Shown in pieces: positions 30,252-39,916 of a stretch of 64,000 nucleotides of DNA. The notes beneath the pieces are model-generated. The model saw only the letters and a program-made list of their open reading frames with translations, was not told the origin of the DNA and ran no database searches. Source of the stretch: Candidatus Gastranaerophilales bacterium (GTDB taxonomy: Bacteria; Cyanobacteriota; Vampirovibrionia; Gastranaerophilales; Gastranaerophilaceae); NCBI GenBank assembly GCA_947630045.1, contig CANRGC010000007.1:1-64000 (forward strand). Direction: 5' to 3'. Position numbers and translations under genes: made by a program. Each line of letters begins with the position of its first letter. Within the stretch, counting starts at the first letter, position 1.

Positions 30252-31355
30252 TTAATCGTATGAAGGCAAAAATCTGTAGCCCATTTGCTGTAAAAGCTCC
30301 CATTTTATTGCCTGTTTTTTGGTTAACATAGAATTAAATTTATCAAGAGATTTGTTATAAAAATCATCTCTTTCCCTTAAAAGGTAATCATAAGTTTTGT
30401 CGAGCTTCTTTAATTTGTCATATCTTGTTTTATTGCCGAGATTTTGCTCTTTAACCTTTTTGATTTCAGCCTCAACGAGATTAATTTGTTTTGTATAGGC
30501 GTTTAATTTAGAGGTTGTTTTATAGTAAAAAATGCTGAATTTTTCGTTTTGTTTGTCGGTAAATCCTAAAAATTCGTTTATGCTTACGGCATTTTTGTCA
30601 ATGTCTGCAAAAGTTAAGTTTTTTCTGTATAATGCAGGGTCATCTGCGGGCTGATTTTCTTCCTTATTTTCTTCCGCTTCCGCCTTTGCTTCCGCTTCTT
30701 CTTTTTTTTCTGTTGTTTTCTCTTTAGGTTCGTTATCTGAAACTTCTTTTATATTGTCCTCTTTTTCTTCTTTTGCTTTGGGTTCGTTATCGTTTTTTGC
30801 GGCTTTTGAACTTTCTTCTTCGCCCTCTGAGGTTTTTTCAGCTTTTTTATCCGAAGCCTCAGCACTTGTTTCCTCTTTATTTTCTTCCTTTGAAGCTTCT
30901 TTTGTTTCCTCTTTGTTTTCTTCTTTTATTTCATCGTTTTTTCCCTGTTTGGCTTCTTCCTTCGCCTGTTTTTCGGCTTGTTTAGCTTCTTCTTTTGCCT
31001 GTTTAGCATCTTCTTTTGCCTGTTTTTCGGCTTGTTTCATTTGTTCTTTTTGGTTTTCTTCATCTTCTTTTGCTTTAATTTTAGCCTCTTTTTGTGCTTC
31101 TTTTTCCGCCTTTTTATTTTCTTTTTCGGCTTTTTTTATGTTTTCTTTTTCAAGTTTTGCCTTTTCTTTTTCAAGTTCTTCCTTATATTTTTCATTAAGT
31201 TTTTCAATTTTTTTATTCGTGTGTTCTTTGATTTCCAAAGGCTTTTGCATTTTTGTTTCATCAATCATAACGGCATTATCCGCACAAAAACCTTTTGCAT
31301 TTATACCCATCAACAAAATTGAAACAGCAATTGTTCTAAATAAAATTTTTTTCAT
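30252..31355 (-). CDS. Exported Lys/Glu-rich coiled-coil protein
   Basis: Protein of 367 residues with a signal peptide (MKKILFRTIAVSILLMGINAKGFCA), then about 190 residues of Lys/Glu/Ala-rich repeats (KQAKEEAKQAEKQAK type) predicted as a long charged helix and disordered linker. The C-terminal domain of about 120 residues (FADIDKNAVSINEFLGFTDKQ ... KKQAIKWELLQQMGYRFL) resembles a small helical periplasmic module. Function is unknown. The ATG at 31355 is preferred over a TTG at 31364 because it begins the signal peptide and has AAGG upstream. Confidence 0.7.
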   Translation of the reverse strand: MKKILFRTIAVSILLMGINAKGFCADNAVMIDETKMQKPLEIKEHTNKKIEKLNEKYKEELEKEKAKLEKENIKKAEKENKKAEKEAQKEAKIKAKEDEENQKEQMKQAEKQAKEDAKQAKEEAKQAEKQAKEEAKQGKNDEIKEENKEETKEASKEENKEETSAEASDKKAEKTSEGEEESSKAAKNDNEPKAKEEKEDNIKEVSDNEPKEKTTEKKEEAEAKAEAEENKEENQPADDPALYRKNLTFADIDKNAVSINEFLGFTDKQNEKFSIFYYKTTSKLNAYTKQINLVEAEIKKVKEQNLGNKTRYDKLKKLDKTYDYLLRERDDFYNKSLDKFNSMLTKKQAIKWELLQQMGYRFLPSYD

Positions 31356-31399
31356 AAAATCCAACCTTTATTAATTTCCACGTAGAAATATAATAACAT

Positions 31400-36789: not shown

Positions 36790-37788
36790 ATGCAGAATTT
36801 AGTAGAGAATTATGAAATTGATTTATCTTCTTGCACAGATTCGGAAAATCTTGCAAACAGCGTAGTTTCGGCACTTGAGATGACTGAAATTAAGAATGCT
36901 TATATAAAATTAAAACTCGGTGACATTTCCATTAATCAGGCACAAATGGTTTCAATAAAATCTTTAATTGAAAGCTGGGGGCACATTTTGGCTTATGTCG
37001 ACACAAATTCCGAGGCTACACGAGAGGTTTGTGTTGAAGCGGGAATAAGCACTCAAGGGCATGAAGGCTATGCGGCAATGAACGCATACGAAGTCCAAAA
37101 CTCAACTCTTGACGATTTGAGAGAAGAATTTAAAATCGGGTTTAACTCTGATTGGCACGAGGAAAACTCTGAAGGCGCTTTTGATAATTATGAAAACAAT
37201 CAAGAAGAAATTAAAGAAACAATTGAGCCCGATGAAAACACTTCTAAGGACGCTCAAGGCGAAGTAAACAAAGTGGTTGAAGTTATAAAAGATGAAGGCG
37301 GGGAAGAACCCGAAATTCAAAAACAGGTTATAGGTGTTTACAGAAAGGCGGATGAAAAAGAAAATCAATCCGAATTTCAAGACGAAGATGTTGATTTTTA
37401 TGCAACTCCGACTGATGAAGACATTGTTATTGACACCAAAAAAACCATTTATGTTAACCAGACTTTAAGAAACGGACAAATTTTAGATTATGACGGGAAT
37501 GTTGTCATAATCGGTGATTGTCACCCCGGTTCCGAAATTAAAGCAACGGGAGATATTACGGTTTGGGGCGTTTTAGGCTCTATAGCCCATGCCGGAATAA
37601 AAGGAAACACCGAAGCAAGAATAAGAGCGCTAAAGATGAATGCGGTGCAATTAAGAATTGCAAACTGTTATTCAAGGCGCCCTGACGGCGGAAACATTCC
37701 GTATATTGTTAAATCTTCGACATTTACGCCTGAAGAAGCAAGAATAGTTGACGATAACATAGTTCTTTTTAAAATAGCACAAGACTAA
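36790..37788 (+). CDS. minC: Septum-site inhibitor MinC
   Basis: Inhibits FtsZ assembly away from midcell, recruited by MinD. The 332-residue protein has an N-terminal MinC_N-like domain (about 1-110), a long acidic linker (about 115-205) and the C-terminal beta-helix domain (about 215-320) with GQILDYDGNVVIIGDCHPGSEI and WGVLGSIAHAGIKGN. The linker is unusually long, since MinC is normally about 230 residues. GGGAAG precedes the ATG. minD follows 11 bases later. Confidence 0.93.
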   Translation: MQNLVENYEIDLSSCTDSENLANSVVSALEMTEIKNAYIKLKLGDISINQAQMVSIKSLIESWGHILAYVDTNSEATREVCVEAGISTQGHEGYAAMNAYEVQNSTLDDLREEFKIGFNSDWHEENSEGAFDNYENNQEEIKETIEPDENTSKDAQGEVNKVVEVIKDEGGEEPEIQKQVIGVYRKADEKENQSEFQDEDVDFYATPTDEDIVIDTKKTIYVNQTLRNGQILDYDGNVVIIGDCHPGSEIKATGDITVWGVLGSIAHAGIKGNTEARIRALKMNAVQLRIANCYSRRPDGGNIPYIVKSSTFTPEEARIVDDNIVLFKIAQD

Positions 37789-37799
37789 AGGAGAATATA

Positions 37800-38609
37800 A
37801 TGACAGGTTCTGTAATAGTTATAACATCTGGAAAGGGCGGCGTAGGAAAGACCACTACCTCTGCAAACATTGGTACTGCCCTTGCAAAAGAAGGAAACAA
37901 GGTTGTTTTAATAGATACCGACATAGGTCTCAGAAATCTTGATTTGCTTCTTGGCTTAGAAAACCGCATAGTTTACACAATTGTTGACGTGGTTGAAGAA
38001 AGATGTAAATTAAAACAGGCACTTGTCAAAGATAAAAAGAACCCTAATTTATGCCTTCTCGCAGCGGCTCAAACAAGAGATAAGTCTGCCGTAACGGAAG
38101 AACAGCTCAAAGATATTTGTGAACAGTTAAAAGAAGATTTTGACTATATTCTTGTTGATTGCCCCGCAGGCATTGAACAAGGGTTTCAAAATGCTGTTGC
38201 GGGCGCTAATGAAGCAATTGTTGTTACAACTCCCGAAATGTCTGCCGTGCGTGACGCTGACAGAATAATCGGGCTTTTAGAAGCAAAAGAAGGGGTTGAA
38301 AAATACAGACTTCTTGTTAACAGGGTCAGACCTAATTTGATAAAAACAAACGATATGATGAGTGTGGATGATGTTGTGGAAATATTATCCGCAGAGCTTA
38401 TCGGAGTTATTCCCGAAGATACGGGAATTATAACCTCTACAAACAGGGGCGAACCCATTGTAAATGATGAAAAATCTCTTGCCGGAAAAGCATATTTAAA
38501 TGTCGCAAGAAGAATTAAAGGGGAAGATGTTCCGTTTTTAAATCTTGATGAGCCGACAACTTTCTTTGGCAAAATAAAGAAATTCTTCTCAAAGAAAGCG
38601 AAGGTGTAA
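37800..38609 (+). CDS. minD: Septum-site ATPase MinD
   Basis: ParA/MinD-family membrane ATPase that oscillates or gradients MinC. The 269-residue protein has the deviant Walker A GKGGVGKTTT, IDTDIGLRNLDLLLGLENR, Walker B YILVDCPAGIEQG, and a C-terminal amphipathic helix (GKIKKFFSKKAKV) that targets the membrane. AAGGAGAATATA precedes the ATG. minE starts immediately after its stop. Confidence 0.97.
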   Translation: MTGSVIVITSGKGGVGKTTTSANIGTALAKEGNKVVLIDTDIGLRNLDLLLGLENRIVYTIVDVVEERCKLKQALVKDKKNPNLCLLAAAQTRDKSAVTEEQLKDICEQLKEDFDYILVDCPAGIEQGFQNAVAGANEAIVVTTPEMSAVRDADRIIGLLEAKEGVEKYRLLVNRVRPNLIKTNDMMSVDDVVEILSAELIGVIPEDTGIITSTNRGEPIVNDEKSLAGKAYLNVARRIKGEDVPFLNLDEPTTFFGKIKKFFSKKAKV

Positions 38610-38610
38610 G

Positions 38611-39294
38611 ATGAGAGATTTATTTCAGGAACTTTATAACAAGGTTTTAAGCCTTTTTAATTCTTCAAAAGAAGAAATTGACCCAACTAAAAACATTGCG
38701 GTAAACAGGTTAAAGACTGTCTTAATGCAAGACAGAGCCGGTTTTTCCGAGCGAGCTATTCAAATGTTAAAAGAAGAATTGATTTCCACCGTTCAAAAAT
38801 ATATGGAAATTGATTCTGAAAATTTTGATTTGCAAATTGATGCGCTTGAAAACGGCGGAACTGTTTTGAACCTTTCAATTCCTGTCAGCCGTCCCAAAAC
38901 GGATGAAGAAATTGATTTCAATTTAAAAGAACAAGAATTAAAAACCCAAAGAAAGGCGCAAGAAATTGTCAAAGAGCTTGAAAATCTTATTAAAGAAAGA
39001 ACTCAGGCGCTGATTGACGGCAAGATTGACCCTTCTTTGATTGAAGAAGCGACCAAAAAGGTAAAAGACGAAGAAGAAAAACCCGAAAACAAAAAAGAAA
39101 AAGAAGAACAAAAAGAACAGGAAGAAAAAACTTCAAAGCCTGAAACTGAGGAAAATCCTTCAGTTGAACACGAAAAAGAAGAAAGTTCTTCAATTGAGCC
39201 TGAAACTGAGGAAAATCCTTTAGTTGAACCTGAAAAAGAAGATGAAAAACCCGAAGAAAAAACACCCGAAAAAGCGGATAAGGCTTCAAAATAA
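38611..39294 (+). CDS. minE: MinE with long acidic C-terminal extension
   Basis: Topological specificity factor that stimulates MinD ATPase. The MinE core is at residues 1-95: an amphipathic N-terminus (MRDLFQELYNKVLSLF), the anti-MinCD helix (IAVNRLKTVLMQDRAGFSERAIQ) and the dimer strand segment (TVLNLSIPV). A helical segment follows (about 100-150), then about 75 residues of Glu/Lys/Pro-rich repeats containing PETEENP and EEKEQ-type units. Typical MinE is about 88 residues, so the tail of about 130 is exceptional. The gene lies one base after minD. Confidence 0.88.
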   Translation: MRDLFQELYNKVLSLFNSSKEEIDPTKNIAVNRLKTVLMQDRAGFSERAIQMLKEELISTVQKYMEIDSENFDLQIDALENGGTVLNLSIPVSRPKTDEEIDFNLKEQELKTQRKAQEIVKELENLIKERTQALIDGKIDPSLIEEATKKVKDEEEKPENKKEKEEQKEQEEKTSKPETEENPSVEHEKEESSSIEPETEENPLVEPEKEDEKPEEKTPEKADKASK

Positions 39295-39368: not shown

Positions 39369-39869
39369 ATGCAGCTTATATTGAAAAAAGATGTACAAAA
39401 TGTTGGCGAAGCCGGCGATTTAATCAACGTTAAAGACGGTTTTGCAAGAAATTATCTCATTCCGAACAACTTGGCTGAATTGGCAACAAAAGGCGCTCTT
39501 GAAGCAAGAGAAAGAAACATTCAAAGAATTAAAGTAAAATCTGAAAAACTTCATAAAGAAGCTCTTGAAAAAGCTGAAAAAATTGAAGCTGCTCAAGTTA
39601 TTGAATTAAGCGCTAAAGCCGGTGAATCAGGAAAATTATTCGGCACAATCACAACTAAAAAACTTGCTGAAGAACTCTTTAACAAGACAGGTCTTGAAAT
39701 TGATAAAAAGACAATCGTTTTGGATAACCCGATTAACAAAATCGGCGAATTTTTAATGACGGTTAAATTGTCTTCAAAAGTAAAAGCTCAAATTAAAGTT
39801 GTTGTTTCAGCTTCAGAAACAATTAAAGAAGCAATTGTTGAAGAAACCGAAGAAAAAGAAGCTGAATAA
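39369..39869 (+). CDS. rplI: 50S ribosomal protein bL9
   Basis: Large-subunit protein with an N-terminal rRNA-binding domain, a long connecting helix and a C-terminal domain. The 166-residue protein starts MQLILKKDVQNVGEAGDLINVKDGFARNYLIPN, the family signature. Its usual length is about 150. AAGGAGAAAATATA precedes the ATG and a strong terminator follows. It sits after minE, probably as part of the same message or with its own promoter. Confidence 0.97.
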   Translation: MQLILKKDVQNVGEAGDLINVKDGFARNYLIPNNLAELATKGALEARERNIQRIKVKSEKLHKEALEKAEKIEAAQVIELSAKAGESGKLFGTITTKKLAEELFNKTGLEIDKKTIVLDNPINKIGEFLMTVKLSSKVKAQIKVVVSASETIKEAIVEETEEKEAE

Positions 39870-39889
39870 GTTTCAAAGTTTAAAAATAA

Positions 39890-39916
39890 AACGGGTGATA
39901 TCACCCGTTTTTTTGT
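39890..39916 (+). terminator. Intrinsic terminator of rplI
   Basis: Stem AACGGGTG / CACCCGTT (39890-39897 with 39902-39909), loop ATAT, then a run of T residues. Confidence 0.9.

Follow-up and report, generated by a model that had tools for sequence, protein, structure and literature searches.

An extended MinE in Candidatus Gastranaerophilales carries a conserved predicted helix and a variable acidic tail

MinE, which helps to position the division site, is a standard in self-organization research and has mostly been studied in forms with about 90 residues. The window analyzed here, the whole stretch of 64,000 nt taken from a genome of Candidatus Gastranaerophilales (contig CANRGC010000007.1), gut bacteria that are relatives of the cyanobacteria, contains a minE gene whose product continues for 133 residues beyond the core domain (Table 1). 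The question that this locus raises is whether such an extension is a functional part of MinE or just a local expansion of repeats. Relatives are described below by family, f1 being the family of the window and f2 to f15 the other families.

Table 1. Features of the min locus and of the extended MinE (coordinates are those of the window).
Feature	Coordinates	Strand	Basis and remarks
minC	36790..37788	+	332 aa; MinC_C at residues 222-319, PF03775 E 3.2e-24
Acidic MinC linker	37126..37434	+	About residues 113-215, bounds by eye; between N-terminal part and C-terminal domain
minD	37800..38609	+	269 aa; TIGR01968 412.2 bits, cut-off 212.9
minE with extended C-terminus	38611..39294	+	227-aa ORF; Pfam MinE and TIGR01215
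N-terminal helix of MinE	38614..38661	+	Residues 2-17; AlphaFold; placed like the E. coli MinE membrane-targeting sequence
MinE core (MinD-contact and dimerization region)	38686..38886	+	Residues 26-92; Pfam, alignment with 3r9j_C
Cap R94-[A/P/T]-[K/R]-x-x-x-E100-[I/L]101	38890..38913	+	Directly past the core; conservation
Conserved charged amphipathic helix	38902..39018	+	Residues 98-136; AlphaFold, dN/dS, hydrophobic moment
Second, weaker helix	39031..39066	+	Residues 141-152; pLDDT about 52-61; in the window's genus and L093 (duplicate L143)
Acidic low-complexity tail, predicted disordered	39067..39291	+	Residues 153-227; composition; pLDDT about 43-59
30-nt (10-aa) tandem repeat inside the tail	39139..39235	+	Private to the window MinE; 3.2 copies, 71% matches
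rplI (ribosomal protein L9)	39369..39869	+	Directly 3' of minE; TIGR00158 131.4 bits
Terminator-like hairpin and T run	39888..39911	+	3' of rplI; consensus match only

The min locus and the MinE core

The genes are arranged in the order minC-minD-minE-rplI, with minC and minD directly upstream of minE; the order in E. coli is minC-minD-minE. Named relatives of the MinD protein come from metagenome genomes of Candidatus Gastranaerophilales and Candidatus Galligastranaerophilus, with identities up to 94%, and its C-terminus, TTFFGKIKKFFSKKAKV, was judged by position and look to be a membrane helix. The rplI gene is found directly 3' of minE in 11 of 68 and in 37 of 75 f1 loci (two overlapping f1 sets with sufficient downstream sequence), and in none of the 51 loci from other families.

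The Pfam MinE profile (PF03776) matches residues 26-92 with an E value of 4.3e-17 (62.3 bits against a cut-off of 25, profile positions 1-67 of 68), and another 133 residues come after it; the MinE core with a long charged extension of the original prediction is confirmed. TIGR01215 spans residues 14-93 with 49.3 bits, exactly its cut-off, and the NCBIfam MinE models NF001422 and NF010595 score under theirs (37.8 of 58 and 24 of 108, respectively). The best match among solved structures is the MinE chain 3r9j_C (residues 26-97, E 0.0015), in which an arginine aligns with R33; we take R33 to correspond to R21 of E. coli MinE. R33 and L34 are invariant in an alignment of 60 sequences. The helix predicted at residues 2-17 is, by its position, a putative membrane-targeting element; in E. 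coli MinE, the sequence with this role occupies residues 2-12 (PMC6803595).

The core domain, the N-terminal helix, the R33/L34 pair in the MinD-contact segment and the gene order are thus all shared with the MinE proteins of E. coli and Neisseria. By these profile matches and its gene context, the ORF encodes a genuine MinE of a minCDE run. What sets it apart is the extension, whereas the unstructured end described for N. gonorrhoeae MinE comprises residues 84-89 only (PMC10031476).

Anatomy, distribution and selection of the extension

The last 75 residues of MinE consist to 91% of D, E, K, S, P, Q, N and T. This value is the highest among the C-termini of the 66 ORFs of the window (median 0.48, next 0.76) and also among those of 231 ORFs of at least 100 aa taken from 264 kb, i.e., the window plus ten 20-kb stretches, together about 16% of the genome, where the 230 others all stay under 0.80 (next 0.77). 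A general habit of the proteome to carry charged tails was therefore ruled out, MinE itself being the one ORF of 231 at 0.80 or above. A highly charged and polar stretch of 75 residues, with a value of 0.87, was observed inside the ORF at 30252-31364 on the minus strand; in the sample of 231 ORFs, only MinE ranks above it.

Between the core and this charged end there are two conserved elements. The first one is a short cap that adjoins the last strand of the core, whose residues R94, E100 and I101 do not vary across 60 f1 proteins (that of the window and 59 of 77 unique relatives). The pattern [APTV][KR]xxx[EQ][IL] is present in 151 of 151 f1 loci with tails of at least 8 residues, whereas in other families only 2 of 34 loci have it; some genomes are counted repeatedly among the 151, and the f1 sequences were already known when the pattern was defined. 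An invariant cap that continues the last strand is what might be found in an autoregulatory element, and the tail could then act on its own protein: the helix would fold onto the core, stabilizing a latent or an active conformation and so setting the switch, and the rest would be a solubility tail. We consider this reading very doubtful, since the AlphaFold model gives the contact segment as a helix (residues 25-42) and, with a pTM of only 0.37, offers no reliable placement of the tail helix on the core.

The second element is the helix of residues 98-136, for which the mean pLDDT per block is 86-88 as far as residue 130 and falls to 66 for residues 131-140. It is amphipathic, with a hydrophobic moment that was matched by 35 of 5000 shuffles and is strongest at 95-100 degrees, and a coiled-coil heptad check located a clear hydrophobic stripe only at residues 116-134. 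Across the wider clade to which the window belongs (33 unique sequences), D98, E100, I101, D102, K115, E118, I119, E122, K128 and L134 are invariant. An f1 protein from genera without the long conserved part has a predicted helix at residues 97-130, with a pLDDT of 84 up to residue 110 and then of 69 and 51. A search of structure sequences (E up to 1) found no solved relative of the tail past residue 109; its matches were two MinE chains and, weakly, the hypothetical protein 1ub9 (residues 57-109, E 0.048). A fold search with the MinE model returned nothing at E 0.001 or better.

The rates of substitution separate the helix from what follows it. The dN/dS values of core, helix and disordered part were 0.06, 0.05 and 0.72 in the window's genus (7 sequences, L001-L007), 0.05, 0.01 and 0.56 in a second group (13 sequences), and 0.08, 0.02 and 0.83 in a third one (8 sequences). 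They are pooled values from 28 sequences of the 33 in the alignment (L008, L083, L093, L096 and L164 were omitted, and L009, from the window's genus, was not caught by the pattern that selected the 33), the disordered part aligns poorly, and the synonymous differences of 0.48-0.65 are near saturation, so that contrasts among the regions are more dependable than the values themselves. By this comparison, the constraint on the helix in the window's clade equals or exceeds that on the MinE core, and this strong purifying selection favors a function for it. The long conserved helix is confined to one part of f1. In a quick MinD tree, drawn open, the sequences that carry it form one group of 21 rows with a support of 85, with two exceptions, L094, which a contig end truncates, and L165, whose helix is present and had been missed by the pattern. 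This grouping is compatible with a single origin of the long helix.

So strong a constraint suggests that the helix makes contacts. One alternative is that it docks one specific divisome or membrane protein, with the disordered stretch as a spacer, so that MinE would carry this partner or be held by it. The invariant charged residues D98, E100, D102, K115, E118, E122 and K128 of the 33 sequences resemble a specific interface, the constraint on the helix exceeds that on the core in two of the three groups, and conserved Cys motifs appear in the tails of some genera, once per genome and in MinE. However, no candidate partner emerged from the sequence and fold searches, the long helix is limited to part of the family, and an intramolecular or a MinE-MinE role would account for the same conservation. 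We regard this pure tether as an unlikely, if serious, alternative.

The Cys motifs mentioned above, like CGDCRECELSDDIECEKK or CAECNECEFSDDVECEIKKKK, lie close to the end of the MinE tail in nine loci (L080, L095, L166, L168, L180, L186, L187, L198 and L208), and the count of one per genome comes from the five matching genomes, of two genera, among six searched. From its sequence, the motif resembles a metal or redox site. Other Cys-rich tails, in L014-L017, L010-L012 and L085, include an ACDCGKCEKC-like tip (genus g35), Cys clusters (g17) and, in L085, 30 Cys in repeats. Of the complete f1 tails, counted once each, 18 of 136 contain at least three Cys.

The disordered part behaves differently from the helix. 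Its median identity within groups is 28-42%, and the 72 f1 tails have a D/E content of 0.42 on average (sd 0.10) and a K/R content of 0.11; judging by these alignments, it conserves composition and not sequence. The tip of the tail is enriched in lysine: the last 10 residues of the f1 tails contain 3.0 K/R versus 1.1 expected, a value reached by none of 2000 shuffles, and a weaker C-terminal K/R excess exists in other proteins (1.74 versus 1.44 in 65 ORFs of the window, and 2.08 versus 1.38 in 141 f1 neighbor ORFs). The original prediction had described a helix followed by about 75 residues of charged repeats: the helix and the charge are borne out, and the repeats turned out to be small. The PETEEN unit of the repeat is present in the window MinE and in none of the eight congeners, the tail of one of them being cut by a contig end.

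It had also been proposed to compare MinE lengths in related genomes, where absence of the tail would point to a local repeat expansion. The MinE profile is present in all nine genomes that make up the genus sample (the window's own genome counted), 139 of 146 of the family, 93 of 98 of an order sample, 130 of 146 of a class sample and 231 of 244 of a phylum sample (the samples overlap), and the open frames of the 139 family MinE have at least 139 aa save that of G073 (92 aa), which is cut by the contig end. The residues past the core were measured in 129 loci, 127 of them with complete frames. All eight congeners carry a tail, L008 among them cut by the contig end, and in f1 the tails have 44-177 residues in 72 of 72 complete frames, with a median of 92 (L008 and L094, which run off their contigs, are outside the 72).

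Among the nearest families, tails of 106-111 residues were found in f7 (three loci), 81 in f5 (one locus), 2-44 in f3 (seven loci, with L043 corrected), and 2-5 in f2 and f4 (four loci). Farther away, they have 2-6 residues in f8, f11 and f13 (six loci), 3-8 in f15 (three loci), 4-124 in f9 (eight loci), and 33-40 in f14 (three loci); the values of f10 (18 and 34, two loci) are unreliable, as are those of L043, L114 and L115, where the profile put the cores wrongly or partly (by its sequence, L043 has about 2 residues). In these samples, the tails are long throughout only in f1 and its neighbors f7 and f5, the last two represented by four loci.

A MinE of the same core family also occurs in the other classes of the phylum, which presumably consist for the most part of photosynthetic cyanobacteria. 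In 40 genomes hand-picked at intervals from the phylum listing, outside the class, the median tail is 14 residues (range 5-70) and three reach at least 44; in 18 further loci from other classes, eight of them chosen for their long frames, the tails have 6-174 residues. The tail there is usually short, some of the long ones are of a different sequence (L122, 174 aa, and L123, 159 aa, both chosen for long frames), and the cap pattern is absent from the 16 loci with tails of at least 8 aa. Long tails thus had more than one origin within the phylum.

The extension could also be functionless, a low-complexity growth tolerated at a free C-terminus. The disordered part, with its dN/dS of 0.56-0.83 and its low identity, would fit this explanation, and so would the fourfold variation in tail length and the private 30-nt repeat. 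Nevertheless, the purifying selection on the helix already disfavors drift for that element, not one of the 72 complete f1 frames has lost the tail, MinE alone among the 231 ORFs carries such a C-terminus, and the basic tip stands above the shuffles, though other C-termini show a weaker trend. We hold drift to be improbable for the extension as a whole. By the tail lengths and the dN/dS values, a local repeat expansion as the full explanation was ruled out for helix and tail; it was accepted for the 30-nt repeat. As far as these comparisons go, the tail is a lineage trait made of parts that differ in age, and the repeat is a private expansion.

The MinC linker and possible losses of Min proteins

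The long acidic linker of MinC that the original prediction had pointed out is indeed there, but it is weak evidence for a joint tuning with MinE. The linkers have 62-191 residues in 34 f1 loci (median 117) and 43-172 residues in seven loci of f8, f11, f13 and f15, all of them with short MinE tails; on the other side, f2, the nearest short-tailed family measured, has a shorter linker of 63 in two loci, and f5 has 26 in one locus. That linker and tail co-evolved as a pair does not follow from these data, the linker lengths overlapping those of short-tailed families. Because of this overlap and of the small sample, with only 10 loci from outside f1 and f7, a joint change of MinC and MinE is neither claimed nor ruled out. 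A conserved motif, ELE-x-ALDKIFG, was observed within the variable linker in many f1 genomes, namely in L078, L080 and L084, with related forms in L070, L073, L074, L077, L088 and L095; it was not found in the MinC of the window.

In some genomes, parts of the Min system were not found. The five sampled genomes of genus g19 (G026, G061, G087, G111 and G130, 81-92% complete) have no MinE and no MinD over the TIGR01968 cut-off, and their loci (L254-L256, L258 and L259) keep a long MinC, with an open frame of 439-478 aa, with no minD in the surrounding stretch. These five genomes show a MinC-only arrangement. Both MinE and the C-terminal domain of MinC are missing in four f6 genomes (G153, G158, G161 and G164, two of them only 87% and 66% complete) and in eight f12 genomes (G192, G197, G202, G207, G211, G216, G220 and G224). 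Judging from these gene contents, loss of the Min inhibitor may have taken place in f6 and f12, families from the same order and class.

Possible function of the extended MinE

Our preferred reading, to which we assign a probability of about 0.4, is that this MinE has gained a lineage-specific module, an interaction helix followed by a soluble acidic brush, that would tune the MinDE patterns. The helix would be a protein-protein interaction module, used for self-association of MinE dimers with each other or for docking of one partner. The disordered part would form the brush, holding MinE off the anionic lipid and slowing its cytosolic diffusion; by scaling laws, a stretch of 91 disordered residues has a radius of 29 Å versus 22 Å for the folded core dimer. 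Together, helix and brush would alter the recruitment of MinE and the length scale, so that MinDE patterns might become possible in short cells. If only length and charge count in the brush, its sequence details being irrelevant, its fast turnover would be explained. Points against this mechanism are the near-neutral evolution of the disordered part, the fourfold spread in its length and the low pTM of the MinE model, which leaves the helix without a reliable position on the core.

A one-dimensional MinDE model was used as a plausibility check, by linear stability with a single assumed parameter set. When MinE diffusion was lowered from 10 to 5 μm2/s, the shortest unstable wavelength shifted from 2.56 to 1.94 μm, the growth rate rose from 0.10 to 0.30 per s, and the fastest mode no longer oscillated; altered recruitment of MinE shifted the wavelength equally far. 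The model is compatible with a tuning for short cells and is no evidence that such tuning occurs. In line with the original prediction, the extension may adjust the Min system to a different cell geometry or tether it to a partner.

A dimerization domain on a minimal MinE peptide permits patterns, and a peptide with both dimerization and membrane targeting gives quasi-stationary ones (PMC6922632). These engineered leucine-zipper peptides likewise add a helix to a MinE activity module, if the natural helix self-associates, but they are made without most of the MinE core, unlike the window MinE (PMC6922632). The MinDE wavelength is reported to become shorter with crowding agents and with anionic lipids (PMC6803595). 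A C-terminal eYFP on E. coli MinE impairs membrane binding, MinC displacement and ATPase stimulation (PMC7276532), and therefore material at the C-terminus can affect function; by the same token, a large tail may be something that the protein needs to accommodate rather than an advantage. Among the literature matches listed, there was no title on the MinE tail in this lineage, nor any experiment on such a tail, and a term search of the text covered of the 2013 eLife and 2014 GBE genome papers found no mention of Min proteins.

A bolder version of the preferred reading is that the Gastranaerophilaceae added a third module to MinE: a selected helix that binds itself or a partner, followed by an acidic brush. 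This module would move MinDE away from long-wavelength oscillation and toward quasi-stationary or short-wavelength patterns that fit very short cells. In this full form we hold it to be rather unlikely; if true, nature would have arrived at something comparable to the modular MinE designs of the laboratory. From its conservation, the helix is kept by selection and so probably matters for the placement of the division site. The family offers a set of natural MinE variants, with a long or a short conserved helix, tails of 44-177 residues and Cys tips, from which to learn what sets the length scale of the division pattern.
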